A stretch of 64,000 nucleotides of DNA from Planctomycetota bacterium (GTDB lineage Bacteria; Planctomycetota; Phycisphaerae; Tepidisphaerales; Tepidisphaeraceae), in contig JBCDCH010000005.1 of the NCBI GenBank assembly GCA_039182125.1, forward strand, positions 1 to 64,000, in the 5' to 3' direction. The notes beneath the pieces were generated by a model. The model did no database searches, was not told the DNA's origin, and saw only the letters and a program-made list of their open reading frames with translations. Every line of letters starts with the position of its first letter. Within the stretch, counting starts at the first letter, position 1. A program made the position numbers and the translations under genes. Below are positions 14,640 through 55,936 of this stretch, piece by piece.

Positions 14640-15917
14640 ATGGCCGTTCAGGACGAACTTACCAACCTCCGTGCCGAGCTGACGGCCGTGACGAATGTGA
14701 GTCGCATGCTCGCCGAGAGCCGCGACCTGCCGATGCTGCTTGAGCGCACGGTCAAGCTCATCACCGACGTGATGGGCGTGAAGGCCGCGTCGATCCGATT
14801 GTTGGATACGACCCAGGATGAACTGACAATCGCCGCCAAACACGGCCTCTCGGACGCGTACCTCGGCAAAGGCAAGATCAGCTTCACCGCGGCGAAAATC
14901 GATCAGGCGGCCCTCTCGCCGCGCGGCTGGGAACTTGTCGAACAAGTCACCGACGACCCGCGGGTGCTGTTTCGTGAGCAGGCGATCCGCGAAGGGATCG
15001 TGAGCATCCTCGTGGCGGGGATGCGATATCTCGGTAAGCCGATCGGCGTGCTGCGTGTGTACACGGACAAGCCACGCCGTTTCTCCGAGCGGGAGATCGA
15101 CCTGCTGCGCACCGTCGCGTCGATGGCGGCGGCGGCGATCGAGAACGTACGCCTCGCCGACGAAGCCCGACAGGTCGAGCGCGATGCCGAACGGCTCGAG
15201 CGTCAGGTCCAACTCGCCGCGAACGTCCAGCAGCGCATGCTGCCCAAGGGGCCGCCCGAAATCGAGGGCATGTCGTTGGCCGGCATCTACCAGCCGGCGC
15301 AGGAACTCGCCGGCGACCTGTACGACTACATCCCGCTGCCCGAGGAAAACCACGGCCTGCTCGTGGCCGACGTGAGCGGCAAGGGCGTGGCGGCCGCGTT
15401 GGTCGGCATGGCCGTGCGTGCATCGTTGCGGGCGCAGGTCGATTACAAGTATGACCTTTCCGAGTCGATCGCCGGGCTCAACCACATGCTCTACCGGGAC
15501 ACGCGGCCCGGCGAGTTCGTCACGCTGTTCTACGCCGTCCTCGACGCCCAGGCGCGGCGGCTGACGTACTGCGCTGCCGGTCACCCGCCCGCGCTGCTGT
15601 GGCGTAACGGCAAGCTACGGGAACTCACCACCGATGACATGTTGCTCGGCATCGACCTCGACGCGACGTTCGGGCAGGGCGTGTTCAAGCTCAGGTCCGG
15701 CGATCGGATGCTGATCTACACGGACGGCTTTCCCGACGCGGAGGATTTTCGTGGCGAGCACTTCGGCGAGGAGCGTGTGGCGGAAGCGTTCACGGAGGCG
15801 GCCAAGTTGGAGAGTGCGGGGGCGATGGCCGAGCACATGCGACGGATGTTACGGAACTTCGTCGGTCTTGCCGACCGCAACGACGACGTCACGTTCATCA
15901 CGCTGCACGTCGAGTGA
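14640..15917 (+). CDS. GAF-domain SpoIIE/PP2C-type serine phosphatase
   Basis: 425 residues. A GAF domain (about 25-175) with AASIRLLDTTQDELTIAAKHG is followed by a coiled linker (ERDAERLERQVQLAANVQQRML). The SpoIIE phosphatase domain then covers 210-425. Metal-binding stretches are ELAGDLYDY, VADVSGKGVAAAL, YTDGFPDAED and NDDVTFITLHV. Such RsbU-like enzymes dephosphorylate anti-sigma antagonists in partner-switching pathways. No antagonist or anti-sigma kinase is adjacent. AAGGGGA lies a few bases before the ATG. Confidence 0.9.
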   Translation: MAVQDELTNLRAELTAVTNVSRMLAESRDLPMLLERTVKLITDVMGVKAASIRLLDTTQDELTIAAKHGLSDAYLGKGKISFTAAKIDQAALSPRGWELVEQVTDDPRVLFREQAIREGIVSILVAGMRYLGKPIGVLRVYTDKPRRFSEREIDLLRTVASMAAAAIENVRLADEARQVERDAERLERQVQLAANVQQRMLPKGPPEIEGMSLAGIYQPAQELAGDLYDYIPLPEENHGLLVADVSGKGVAAALVGMAVRASLRAQVDYKYDLSESIAGLNHMLYRDTRPGEFVTLFYAVLDAQARRLTYCAAGHPPALLWRNGKLRELTTDDMLLGIDLDATFGQGVFKLRSGDRMLIYTDGFPDAEDFRGEHFGEERVAEAFTEAAKLESAGAMAEHMRRMLRNFVGLADRNDDVTFITLHVE

Positions 15918-15922
15918 CGCAA

Positions 15923-17440
15923 TCAGAACGGCAGGAGCTTCCGCAAACGCAGCCGCCAGCGGAGGCGGCGCAGGGCGAGATTGCCGGGTTCGAGCAGCAG
16001 GCCGTGCCGCAGGGCAACGCGGGCGTTGCCGATCTCTCCGTGGCGGGCGAGCGCGAGTGCGAGGTTGTGCCAGGCGGCCACGCGTTTCGGATCGATCTCC
16101 AGCGCCCGTCGCAGCGCGTTGAGCCCTTCCGCGACACGATCGGCACGGCATTCGGCAACCCCCAGGCGGTGCCAGACTGCCGCGTCGTTGGGGCGAACCA
16201 GGAGCAGCTTGCGCAGCGCCGCGGCACAGCCGGCGTCGTCGCCGATTGCGTCGGCCTCGCGGGCCACGGACTCGAGCACGTCCACGTCTCGCGGCCGGCG
16301 AAGCAGTTCCGCGCGGAGGTGTCGTTGTGCAAGACCGACGTCACCGCGACGTGCCGCGATTGTGGCAAGCTGCAAGTGAACACGGGGGAACGTCGGGTCG
16401 CCGGCCGCCGCGTTGCTCAGCGCGTCCCAGGCCGCTTCGATGTCGCCTTCCGCCGTGTGCAGCCGACCCAGGAGCGAGAGCGTGGCCGGCTCCTGTGGGG
16501 CGATGTCGGACAGTGCTGTCAGTACCGGACGCGCCGCGCGGGGGTCGTCGGCATCGAGAAGCATCCGTGCCAGGTGTGCCAGCAGGTCCGGCCGAGTTGG
16601 ATCCTGCGGCGTGGTTCGGCCGATGCCTTCACGCAACGATCGCAACGCCAGCGCGGTTTGCCCATCGGCTTCGAGGCAGAGGGCGAGCCGGGCGATGACC
16701 GCACCGCGGGGAACCATCGGTTCGCTCGTGTCGATCGCCAGGCAACGCCGGTAACACCAGATCGCGCGGCGGTGCAGCCCGCGCATTTCCAGCGACCGGC
16801 CCATGTTGAAAAAGCTGCGCGGACAACGCTCGTCAAGCTGCTGCGCCATGTAGAACATGGCTTCGGCCCGGTCATGCTCACCGAGCTCGGCGTGGCACAC
16901 GATGCGGTTGACGATGCCGGGCATGAACTTCGGATCGAGCGTGCATGCGGCGGCGAACTGCTCGATCGCTTCCCGGTCATTGCCGCGTTCGTGAAGGGCG
17001 GCACCGAGGTGATTCAGGGTGTGTGGTTCGTCCGGGTCGAGCTCGACGGCGCGGCGGTAGGCAGCGAGCGCGGCGACCGGGTCGCCGACCGCGTCGAGCG
17101 CGAGGCCCAGTTCGATGTGCGCCGGCGCGTCCCACGGGCCGTCGGCTTCGAGGTTGTCCCGGAGCAGGTCGACCGCGTCGGCGGCATTGCCGGCCTCACG
17201 CAACTCACGGGCCTCGACGACAAAACCCGGCTCGGCGTCGCCGGTGAAGTTCGCCCAGCCTTGGGGCGCGTGTTGCGGAGGATCGAAGATGCCGCCGAGG
17301 TCGTCGTCGAACGGATCGTTGCCGCCGTTCCAGTCGCCCTCGGAATCAAACGGCAGGTCGTCCGTGAAGTCCGGCTCGGAGGAATGGCCTTCAAAGCCGG
17401 GCTCATCGGGGAAGCCGAAGTCGTCGGAATCGCCGGTCAT
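15923..17440 (-). CDS. tetratricopeptide-repeat protein
   Basis: 505 residues. An acidic, Phe/Asp-rich N-terminus (1-70) precedes a run of about ten TPR units from residue 80 to the end (for example AAYRRAVELDPDEPHTLNHLG and ALRRALEIDPKRVAAWHNLA). There is no signal peptide or membrane segment. The C-terminus is Arg/Leu-rich (LRRLRWRLRLRKLLPF). The start at 17440 has GGAG upstream. It is convergent with the phosphatase gene, 5 bases apart, and divergent from the HEAT-repeat gene. It is likely a scaffold; partners are unknown. Confidence 0.75.
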   Translation of the reverse strand: MTGDSDDFGFPDEPGFEGHSSEPDFTDDLPFDSEGDWNGGNDPFDDDLGGIFDPPQHAPQGWANFTGDAEPGFVVEARELREAGNAADAVDLLRDNLEADGPWDAPAHIELGLALDAVGDPVAALAAYRRAVELDPDEPHTLNHLGAALHERGNDREAIEQFAAACTLDPKFMPGIVNRIVCHAELGEHDRAEAMFYMAQQLDERCPRSFFNMGRSLEMRGLHRRAIWCYRRCLAIDTSEPMVPRGAVIARLALCLEADGQTALALRSLREGIGRTTPQDPTRPDLLAHLARMLLDADDPRAARPVLTALSDIAPQEPATLSLLGRLHTAEGDIEAAWDALSNAAAGDPTFPRVHLQLATIAARRGDVGLAQRHLRAELLRRPRDVDVLESVAREADAIGDDAGCAAALRKLLLVRPNDAAVWHRLGVAECRADRVAEGLNALRRALEIDPKRVAAWHNLALALARHGEIGNARVALRHGLLLEPGNLALRRLRWRLRLRKLLPF

Positions 17441-48130: not shown

Positions 48131-50740
48131 ATGAACTTCCTCCTCCAAACGTGTCTTGCTGTTCAACTCGCGTCGGTGCCGCAGGTTTTGCCTTCGGAGG
48201 ATGTGGAGCTTGAGCAGGGCGTTTCGCTTCGGGTGTACGACGTGAGTCGTGAGCTGCCGTTGATGCCGACGCTGGTCGAGGGGCAGACGCCGAACGTAAG
48301 CAAGCGGGTCGATGGGCTGACGCTGATCGATGGCGCATACGAACTCGACGACCTGTTCCTCGCGACCGCCGACACCTGGCTCAAGGTCGACGAGGCCGGC
48401 ACCTACGAGTTCGTCGTCGAGGCCGACGATGGCGTCATCCTCGAGATCAACGACGTCGTCGTCGCCCAGGGCAACACCAGCTACCCGCACGTTCTGCAGA
48501 CCGGCTTGAAATTGGAAGAGGGTTTTCACAAGCTGCGCGTCACGCTTTGGGAGGCCAAGGGTCAGGCGATCATGCGCGTCGGCTGGCGGAAGATGAACGA
48601 CGAGGCGTTTGAGACGATTCCGACGGACTTGCTCTTCACAGAGGCCGACCAGGTCCGCCCGACCTCGCCGGGGCCCAAGAACGTCATCCTGCCCGACGGG
48701 GTCGACGCGAAGTTGATGACCGCCGGCAACGGCCGACCGCTCAATGGCGTTCACCCCTATCTCGAACTGACCAACCTCCGTCCTGACGGCTTCGAGCCAA
48801 AGGTCGGCGGCATGACGTTCATCGACGGCCAACTCGCCGTCTGCACATGGGACCGTGTCGGCGGCGTCTACCTCGTCGGCGGCGATGAGGTGACGAAGAT
48901 CGCCGAAGGTCTCGCCGAGCCGCTGGGCATGTTCCACATTGACGGCCGGACGTTCGTGCTGCAGAAGCAGGAGCTGACCGAGCTGATCGACGAGGACGGC
49001 GACGGCGTGACCGACTTCTACAAGGCCGCCGTCACCGGCTGGCCGACGTCGGCCAACTTCCACGAGTTCGCGTTCGGCCTCGAAGGCCGCATGACCGACG
49101 ACGGCCCCCGGCTCTACGGCGCGCTCGCTGTCGCGATCGACCCCGGCGGTCGCACGACCGTGCCGCAGGTGCCGGGTCGGGGCGTCGTCATCGAGATGGA
49201 CCCCGATGCCGGTACGTACGAAGTCCTCGCCCAAGGCGTCCGCACGCCCAACGGCGTCGGCTTCGGCGTCGATGGCGAACTGTTCGTGCTCGACAACCAG
49301 GGCGACTGGTTGCCCGAGTCGAAGATGAGTCACGTTCCGCTCGACGGCGAGCCACGGTTTCTCGGTTCGCACATGACGCCGGATCATCCGTGGGCGGACC
49401 TGGTGCCGCCGGACCCGGTGGTCTGGCTGCCCCAGGGCGAGATCGGCAACTCACCCACGCAGCCGACGCTGCTGCCGGACAACTGGGGTCCTTACGCCGG
49501 CGACATGGTCCACGGCGACGTCACCCACGGCGGCGTCAAGCGCGTCTTTGTCGAGGAAGTCAACGGCCAATACCAGGGCGCGGTCTTCCGCTTTACCCAA
49601 GGCATGGAGGCCGGTGTCAACCGGCTGCTCGTCGGCCCCAACGGCGATCTGTTCGTCGGCATGATCGGCTCGACCGGCAACTGGGGCGATGGCTCCGGGC
49701 AGTTCCACGGGCTCCAGAAACTCACGCCCGGACAGACGCTGCCGTTCGAGATGGCCGAAGTGGCCGCGACGGAAACGGGCTTCACGATTACGCTGACCAA
49801 GCCCGCCGCCGAGGCGTTCGATGCCGAGCACTTCGCCGTCGTCGACTACCGCTACGACCCGACCAGCCAGTACGGCGGCCCGAAGAAGGACGTGCGCGAT
49901 CTGTCGGTGTCCGGTGTCAATTGGAACGATGACCGGACGCGCGTGACGCTCGACATTCCCGACCTGCAGCCGGGCCGTGTGGTGCATCTCGTGCTCGTCG
50001 ACATGGCCGATGTCGAGGGCAACCTGCCGTGGACGACCGAGGCGTGGTACACGCTCAACCAGGTCCCCGGCCAGACCCGGGCACCCAAGCAAGTCATGAT
50101 GCCCAAACTCACCGAAGCCGAGATTGCCGACGGATGGAAGCTGCTGTTCAACGGCCGCGACACGGCCGGCTGGCACAACGTGAACTCGGAAGACATCTCC
50201 GGCGCATGGGCCGCGACCGAGGCGGGCGAGCTGCATCTGCAATGGGCCGGCGGCGGGGACATCGTCACCGATGAGACGTACGGTGACTTCGAACTCTCGC
50301 TCGAATGGAAGATCAGCGAGGGCGGCAACAGCGGCATTTTCTACCGCGGCGTCGAGACACCCGGCGAGCCGATCTTCACCACCGCCCTGGAGATGCAGGT
50401 CCTCGACGACCAGCGCCACGGCGACGCGAAGAACGGCCGCGACCGGTGGGCCGGGGCGCTCTACGCGCTCTACGCCGTGCCCGATCCGTCGCCGGCCAAT
50501 CCCGCGGGGCAGTGGAACCACGCCATCGTGCGCCTGAAAGACAATCAGCTCACCCACATCCTCAACGGCGCGGTGATCCTCGAAACCGAGCTCTGGGGCG
50601 AGGACTTCACGCAGCGCGTCGCCGAGAGCAAGTTCGCCAGCATGCCCGGCTTCGCCAAAGCCGACCGCGGCGTCATCGGCCTGCAAGACCACGGCGATCT
50701 GGTCTGGTACCGCAACGTGAAGATCCGCGAGCTGGATTGA
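48131..50740 (+). CDS. secreted PA14-like / beta-propeller / DUF1080 protein
   Basis: 869 residues. A short signal-like N-terminus precedes a PA14-like domain (about 25-175, with EADDGVILEINDVVVAQG). A beta-propeller region (about 190-660) contains VGGMTFIDGQLAVCTWDRVG and PNGVGFGVDGELFVLDNQGD. A C-terminal DUF1080/3-keto-disaccharide hydrolase-type jelly roll (about 665-869) has DGWKLLFNGRDTAGWHNVN and EWKISEGGNSGIFYRGVETP. Such planctomycete proteins are linked with sugar breakdown. Enzymatic activity of the propeller is unproven. Confidence 0.85.
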   Translation: MNFLLQTCLAVQLASVPQVLPSEDVELEQGVSLRVYDVSRELPLMPTLVEGQTPNVSKRVDGLTLIDGAYELDDLFLATADTWLKVDEAGTYEFVVEADDGVILEINDVVVAQGNTSYPHVLQTGLKLEEGFHKLRVTLWEAKGQAIMRVGWRKMNDEAFETIPTDLLFTEADQVRPTSPGPKNVILPDGVDAKLMTAGNGRPLNGVHPYLELTNLRPDGFEPKVGGMTFIDGQLAVCTWDRVGGVYLVGGDEVTKIAEGLAEPLGMFHIDGRTFVLQKQELTELIDEDGDGVTDFYKAAVTGWPTSANFHEFAFGLEGRMTDDGPRLYGALAVAIDPGGRTTVPQVPGRGVVIEMDPDAGTYEVLAQGVRTPNGVGFGVDGELFVLDNQGDWLPESKMSHVPLDGEPRFLGSHMTPDHPWADLVPPDPVVWLPQGEIGNSPTQPTLLPDNWGPYAGDMVHGDVTHGGVKRVFVEEVNGQYQGAVFRFTQGMEAGVNRLLVGPNGDLFVGMIGSTGNWGDGSGQFHGLQKLTPGQTLPFEMAEVAATETGFTITLTKPAAEAFDAEHFAVVDYRYDPTSQYGGPKKDVRDLSVSGVNWNDDRTRVTLDIPDLQPGRVVHLVLVDMADVEGNLPWTTEAWYTLNQVPGQTRAPKQVMMPKLTEAEIADGWKLLFNGRDTAGWHNVNSEDISGAWAATEAGELHLQWAGGGDIVTDETYGDFELSLEWKISEGGNSGIFYRGVETPGEPIFTTALEMQVLDDQRHGDAKNGRDRWAGALYALYAVPDPSPANPAGQWNHAIVRLKDNQLTHILNGAVILETELWGEDFTQRVAESKFASMPGFAKADRGVIGLQDHGDLVWYRNVKIRELD

Positions 50741-54349: not shown

Positions 54350-54377
54350 AGCCGGGCGATTCGATCGCCCGGCTGTT
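54350..54377 (+). terminator. terminator after the FixJ-like gene
   Basis: AGCCGGGCGAT-TCG-ATCGCCCGGCT forms an 11-base-pair stem, followed by GTTTC. Its core hairpin is the same GGGCGA-N5-TCGCCC unit that forms the repeat at 50771-50877. Confidence 0.75.
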
Positions 54378-54486
54378 TCGACTGTCCGCTGATGGCATTG
54401 GGTGTATCCGCGTAGGGGAATGCGCTTACGCACGAGACACAGTGGGGCAAGTCCCATCTGGTCGGTGCGGTCGCTGAATCTGACTT

Positions 54487-54517: not shown

Positions 54518-55936
54518 ATGCAGATCAACACCGCCGCCGCGACATTTCCGACCACCTACGCTGCTCCCGCCACACCGACCGCCGGCATCGACGCTCTCCG
54601 GCAAAAGGCCGATGCGTTTCACAAAGCCGAAGCGAACCTCACCGCAGTGTTGACCGGTCGCGGCACCCGGCGGGCGACATACAGCCTCGAGCGTGACCTG
54701 CTCGCCCGCCACACCAGCCAACATGCGGCCGGTATCGCGAAGGCGTCCCGCAACCTTGATGTGGCGGCGGCGGCCGATGCGGCGGTCCGATCCGCCGATG
54801 ACGCGCTGATCACCATGCGAACCGCCGTTGAACGCCTCGCCGGTGGTCTGTCCCAGAACGATGCCGACAACGCCCGTGCCCAGATCAACGCCGCCATGAA
54901 TGAGCTTACCAAGAGCAGTGCGGCGGAGTTCGCCGGCAAACGCCTTTTCACCGGCAAGCCCATCGCCAGTGTGGTTGGCGAGGATGTGGAAGCATCCATG
55001 CCGGAACCGACGCAGCCCAACACCGGCACGGGTCTCACCGTGTCCTACTACGAAGGGTTGAACTTCGAGAAGCTCATCTCCACCGGCGTCGACGCGACCG
55101 TGCATCACGCGTGGCGCAGCGCGGAGGTCGGCGACAGCGGCCTGAAAGACAACGTGAGTGTCCGGTGGGAGGGCGAAGTCGAAGCGCTCGAAGCCGGCGA
55201 CTATCAGTTCCGCACGCGGTCCGACGACGGGATTCGTGTCTGGGTTGATGACGAACTCGTGATCGACAACTGGACCAACCACGGCGCGACCTACGACGTG
55301 TCGGAGAGCATCGCGTTCGAGGAGAACGAGCGCAAGAGCATTCGCGTGGAGTACTTCGAAAATCGCGGCTCGGCGATCATGCAATTGCAGTGGGGACAAA
55401 ACAGCCGATTCCGGGCGATCAACACGGGCCAGCTTTACGAAGTCGAAAAGGAAATCGAGCCCGGATCGGTCGGCGTCGCGTCCAATCACCTCGAACACGC
55501 CCGTGACGATTTCAACGCCGGCCCGTCAATCGCGGGCGGGCGGCACACGTTCTACGCCGGCGGTCTTGAAGCCGGGGATTTGGGCGTCGGCGATCAGCGT
55601 CTGACCGACCTCGACACGCTGCTCGACAACGGTCGTTACGAGGAAGCGCTCGGCGTGATCGACGCCAGCCGGGAACAGGTCCGCCTGCAGCAGGTCGCCG
55701 TTGATGCGTTTGCCCGTGGTGCGCGTGCGACGATGGGCGTTTCGGAAAAGGCGTTGCTCCGCTCGGAGCGTGCGGCGACACGGATGAACGACATTTCCGC
55801 AGCGCTGACCGAGTCCGAGAACGCGCGGGCGGCGTTGATCGATCAGGCCCGCTCCCAGGCTAACCGACTTGCCGAGACATTCGCCGCGACCCGTCCGGGC
55901 ACGCTCGTCGGCACCGCACTCTCGGTCCGGGTCTGA
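54518..55936 (+). CDS. flagellin/FlgL-fold protein with a central PA14 domain
   Basis: 472 residues. Residues 25-147 follow the N-terminal helices of flagellin/FlgL (TSQHAAGIAKASRNLDVAAA, SADDALITMRTAVERLAGG, MNELTKSSAAEFAGKRLFTG). Residues 350-472 follow the C-terminal helices (LLDNGRYEEALGVIDASREQ and SERAATRMNDISAALTESE). Between them (about 172-305) sits a PA14 domain with FRTRSDDGIRVWVDDELVID and RVEYFENRGSAIMQLQW. The usual variable domain is thus replaced by a probable sugar-binding module. It is probably displayed on the flagellum or its hook junction. Confidence 0.8.
   Translation: MQINTAAATFPTTYAAPATPTAGIDALRQKADAFHKAEANLTAVLTGRGTRRATYSLERDLLARHTSQHAAGIAKASRNLDVAAAADAAVRSADDALITMRTAVERLAGGLSQNDADNARAQINAAMNELTKSSAAEFAGKRLFTGKPIASVVGEDVEASMPEPTQPNTGTGLTVSYYEGLNFEKLISTGVDATVHHAWRSAEVGDSGLKDNVSVRWEGEVEALEAGDYQFRTRSDDGIRVWVDDELVIDNWTNHGATYDVSESIAFEENERKSIRVEYFENRGSAIMQLQWGQNSRFRAINTGQLYEVEKEIEPGSVGVASNHLEHARDDFNAGPSIAGGRHTFYAGGLEAGDLGVGDQRLTDLDTLLDNGRYEEALGVIDASREQVRLQQVAVDAFARGARATMGVSEKALLRSERAATRMNDISAALTESENARAALIDQARSQANRLAETFAATRPGTLVGTALSVRV

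Follow-up and report, generated by a model that had tools for sequence, protein, structure and literature searches.

The forward-strand gene at 54518-55936 of the window (the whole 64,000-nucleotide stretch of DNA analysed, from a planctomycete with a genome of 4.1 Mb) encodes a PA14 domain set between helical flanks; the N-terminal one is supported as flagellin-type, and the C-terminal one is likely so. We give about an even chance to the explanation that fits it best, namely that its product is a much-diverged accessory paralogue of flagellin whose outer D2/D3 domains are replaced by a lectin-type PA14 domain, and which would serve as a minor exported subunit. The analysis shows the PA14 domain, the flagellin relation on the N side, the predicted helix layout, the flagellar gene set of the genome and an N-terminus without Sec-like character, whereas the weakly supported flagellin relation on the C side, the export route, incorporation, sugar binding and a role in adhesion are inferred. 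Coordinates of the features are collected in Table 1.

Table 1. Features of the PA14 gene and of a second PA14 protein, in window coordinates
Feature	Position	Strand	Basis or detail
Diverged flagellin-type protein with PA14 domain, whole gene	54518..55936	+	472 aa, no Cys, ATG 54518, stop at 55936
N-terminal D0/D1-type helical flank, residues about 25-147	54590..54958	+	flagellin profile 24.9 bits; HHalign 82%; predicted helices
PA14 domain, residues 171-294	55028..55399	+	Pfam 81.3 bits; genome scan 84.3 bits; structural match to known PA14 domains
D-D motif, residues 236-237	55223-55228	+	D236-D237-G238 inside PA14 domain
Low-confidence linker between PA14 and C-terminal helices, residues 313-356	55454..55585	+	pLDDT <50
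Likely C-terminal CD1/CD0-type helical flank, residues 374-464	55637..55911	+	flagellin C-terminus register; predicted helices
PA14 plus 3-keto-disaccharide hydrolase protein	48131-50740	+	PA14 37 bits; hydrolase domain 161 bits

PA14 was the only Pfam domain above cut-off in the 472-residue protein, scoring 81.3 bits at residues 171-294 against a cut-off of 24. This unambiguous match bears out the PA14 module of the original prediction, which also had the frame, the strand and the position of the domain right. The nearest solved sequences were those of PA14 domains that occur in tandem in Clostridium RsgI proteins, and the refined model matched in structure the PA14 domains of RsgI proteins together with those of the MpIBP and MhLap adhesins, which are PA14 lectins of marine RTX adhesins. 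Residues D236-D237 correspond to Asp136-Asp137 of MhPA14, the D-cis-D motif that there coordinates the calcium ion holding the sugar (PMC6650083), and in a second loop E281 and N282 lay opposite MhPA14 Asp181 and Gln182. The lectin domains MhPA14 and MpPA14 thus share both the fold and the D-D calcium/sugar motif with the domain described here, but there the carrier is a type I-secreted adhesin and here it is a set of flagellin-type helices. Similarly, the PA14 domains of the Clostridium RsgI sensors (6qe7, 6qdi), although among the best sequence and fold matches, are carried by a membrane anti-sigma factor.

The N-terminal flank was compared with two separate profiles, one of class flagellins gathered by PF00669 and one of FlgL proteins gathered by TIGR02550, the unselected flagellin set replacing a circular one made of flagellins chosen by likeness to the query (33 bits). 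Against the unselected class flagellin profile the flank scored 24.9 bits (E 2.5e-6 over 3,500 proteins), with the significant match covering residues 64-147, and about 2,000 shuffles gave no more than 8.0 bits; against the FlgL profile it scored 14.1 bits (E 0.006). HHalign gave a probability of 82 for flagellin versus 9.5 for FlgL, the flagellin score of 42 standing against a shuffle maximum of 28.5. When residues 1-165 were searched against 397 class genomes, the matches were weak and mostly canonical flagellins of ~500 residues aligned in one register, and the end of the flank, FAGKRLFTG, is in register with the flagellin D1 motif FxGkkLLnG. The N-terminus carries an 11-residue insertion relative to flagellins, and the conserved LSxGxRIN...DDPAGL motif is absent. 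The profile and HHalign comparisons support homology of the flank to the N-terminal D1 of flagellin.

The C-terminal flank gave an HMM score of 5 bits against flagellin, which is not significant alone, and no HHalign match. In an ungapped fixed-register score, the best register coincided with the flagellin end position at a z of about 3, with 26-32 of 5000 shuffles reaching the score, while the same score against FlgL gave a z of 0.9. Both flanks aligned almost without gaps to flagellins, the D0 regions and both chain ends being the most diverged. Canonical Phycisphaerae flagellins (PF00669/PF00700), the two of the host included, have in common with the PA14 protein the helix order, the N-terminal D1 likeness, the C-terminal register and an N-terminus that is not Sec-like. 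However, the PA14 protein shares only about 16-21% identity with them over the whole alignment, falls below the Pfam cut-off, has lost DDPAGL and has PA14 where they have the D2-type region.

Pfam and NCBIfam flagellin and FlgL models, including Flagellin_N and Flagellin_C, matched neither the whole protein nor either flank at E up to 5. AlphaFold without an alignment (mean pLDDT 47.7) placed helices at residues 21-46, 55-108 and 113-139, followed by beta strands and by helices at 374-404 and 410-458, an order that in this low-confidence model is as expected for flagellin with an inserted beta domain. A second run, given an alignment of 19 flagellins and 12 PA14 domains, reached a mean pLDDT of 74, with most PA14 blocks at 88-98, most D1-type helix blocks at 76-95 and lower values at the start of the N-terminal helix; because flagellins supplied its alignment, this run is not independent evidence for a flagellin fold. 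With the refined model, the best 50 Foldseek matches were PA14-type structures only, and Foldseek on the low-confidence model was informative just for PA14. The original prediction had proposed that conserved flagellin-type helices at both ends enclose PA14 where the variable surface domain would otherwise be, and had named structure prediction as a check. The substitution by PA14 on a flagellin-type scaffold is supported, and the predicted helix order, with the beta domain in the middle, appeared in the alignment-free run as well. The helices are conserved in part only: the N flank stands by its profile match, with which the predicted helices agree, but curated models do not match and the C flank is suggestive only.

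The genome encodes two canonical flagellins, the copy on contig C66 running to the contig end, and the named relatives of its own flagellin are mostly Phycisphaerae. Contig C2 carries flgF-flgG-flgA-flgH-flgI-flgN-flgK-flgL-fliW-csrA, in which flgF and flgG were named by position and shared domains. Normal flgL and fliC genes, which the original prediction had proposed to look for, are therefore present, as an FlgL beside FlgK plus two flagellins. Given these two flagellins, this FlgL and a flagellar cluster outside which the PA14 gene sits, the PA14 protein is an accessory paralogue, distinct from both the main flagellin and the genome's FlgL. Flagellin and FlgL (HAP3, TIGR02550) share a common helical scaffold, and the weak N-flank likeness to FlgL would be expected if PA14 were carried by a hook-filament junction protein, as the original prediction had allowed. 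That option fails on several counts: the genuine FlgL adjoins FlgK as a separate protein, TIGR02550 is unmatched, the N flank prefers flagellin profiles in both comparisons, and the C-terminal register score is higher for flagellin. FlgL identity was rejected, and a junction protein of this type is very improbable.

Loss of the LSxGxRIN...DDPAGL motif and divergence of the chain ends make a secreted, non-structural flagellin paralogue the main rival. Such a protein would be exported via the flagellar channel and released instead of polymerised, as is described for Campylobacter FlaC (PMC5466977), and its PA14 would act as a lectin that is soluble or only loosely attached. The strong divergence of the D0 regions and the position of the gene outside flagellar clusters agree with this, but both flanks retain flagellin-like helix lengths and order in the alignment-free model and there was no sign of release; we regard it as rather unlikely. 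It is quite unlikely that the gene is a former flagellin paralogue which, after domain capture, has become non-functional and is drifting towards loss. Its extreme divergence and its presence in one genome only, without an orthologue, would fit such decay; however, the 472-codon frame is intact, codon use is coding-like and similar to that of neighbouring genes, and PA14 is well preserved, D236-D237 included. There is likewise just a slim prospect that this is a non-flagellar helical PA14 protein whose N-terminal helices look like those of flagellin through chance or convergence, as the unmatched curated models and the weak C flank might suggest. Chance resemblance of the N flank was rejected on the shuffles of both the profile and the HHalign comparison, the profile match is specific to flagellin over FlgL, and the flank ends in the D1-motif register. 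Moreover, of the 3,208 open frames in the loci that were fetched, 54 had PA14 and 114 had flagellin, but both occurred only in the 54518-55936 gene, no other PA14 frame matching flagellin.

The preferred reading as an accessory, lectin-type flagellin would operate as follows. The unfolded protein would be exported via the flagellar type III export channel without a Sec signal and, via its D0/D1-type helices, could join the filament as a minor subunit beside the two canonical flagellins. PA14 would then project outwards and bind sugars by means of a calcium ion that D236-D237 coordinate, and the flagellum bearing it might adhere to polysaccharide surfaces or particles or linger on them. In favour of this reading are the presence of FlgK, FlgL, FlgN, FliW, FlgH, FlgI and two flagellins in the genome, and an N-terminus without a Sec-type hydrophobic stretch. 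Counting against it are the unmatched curated flagellin models, a C flank that is not significant alone, the missing LSxGxRIN...DDPAGL motif with the 11-residue N-terminal insertion, the location of the gene outside the flagellar cluster and the failure of the searches to find an orthologue. Assembly into active filaments is known for flagellinolysins, flagellins whose hypervariable region contains a metallopeptidase (PMC5595980); because such enzyme-bearing flagellins assemble, the insertion site of PA14 is compatible with export and assembly. The likeness lies in a flagellin scaffold whose hypervariable region accommodates a foreign functional domain, but in the present protein the insert is PA14 and not a peptidase, the scaffold is far more diverged and a single case is at hand.

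The complete architecture was not found in genomes of the order, in 397 genomes of the class searched with either flank, in plasmids or in a GTDB pattern scan with joined flanks. A combined flagellin-N and PA14 profile was run against 397 genomes of the class and 392 of the phylum, and none of the matches listed extended over both halves; this search is blind to fusions as diverged as the PA14 protein and could miss such cases elsewhere. A PHROGs search with the protein gave no match, and in the open-access literature no paper joined flagellin and PA14 in the sense of a lectin-flagellin. Flagellin-type proteins whose outer domain has a function of its own are a known kind; what sets this one apart is a domain of lectin type on a scaffold so diverged, and it is so far a single sequence. 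Flagellar adhesion to polysaccharides is usually ascribed to ordinary flagellin surfaces or glycans. We predict tentatively, at somewhat less than an even chance, a natural lectin-flagellin in which calcium-dependent sugar-binding PA14 domains along the filament form a built-in glycan adhesin or sensor. If so, a flagellin that devotes a domain of lectin type to binding would give a clear and testable example of a filament shaped by evolution for that role, and would indicate how much divergence D0/D1 can tolerate while still allowing export or assembly. Since flagellin paralogues can drop below Pfam thresholds, domain fusions of flagellin are likely undercounted.

Upstream of the PA14 gene lies a gene for a LuxR/FixJ-type response regulator, and downstream one for an ArsR-type regulator, neither of which is flagellar. 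Directly after the response regulator gene, at 54350-54374, lies a perfect 10-bp hairpin, AGCCGGGCGA-TTCGA-TCGCCCGGCT, followed by GTTT. It is a probable terminator, and because it precedes the PA14 gene the latter probably has its own promoter. In this putative promoter, at 54411-54430, the sequence CGTAGGGGAATGCGCTTACG has short inverted ends and no second copy in the window. The two flagellin genes of the genome have an upstream motif in common, as well as a GGAAGGAACATTCGC stretch ahead of the start codon, and the region upstream of the PA14 gene has neither this motif nor the ribosome-binding-site stretch GGAAGGAACATTCGC. Because the motif is frequent across the genome, its absence is weak evidence against co-regulation. 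A synteny search through homologues of the upstream response regulator found distant ones only (37-45% identity). In a relative (G015, contig C550, L159 / L166) such a homologue adjoins a canonical flagellin gene, an adjacency that may be due to chance or to a link of this regulator type to flagellins.

PA14 also occurs elsewhere in the genome. The PA14-like domain that the original prediction had noted in the protein at 48131 was confirmed (37.4 bits, residues 28-154). The N-terminus of this protein is hydrophobic, a stretch of DUF7133/SGL type is weakly matched, and a 3-keto-disaccharide hydrolase domain lies at the C-terminal end; from these sequence features it is likely a secreted carbohydrate-active protein. 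In the same genome (G000 contig C30, about 14679-16415; L001-L003, L005), a 1,413-codon frame contains four tandem PA14 domains.
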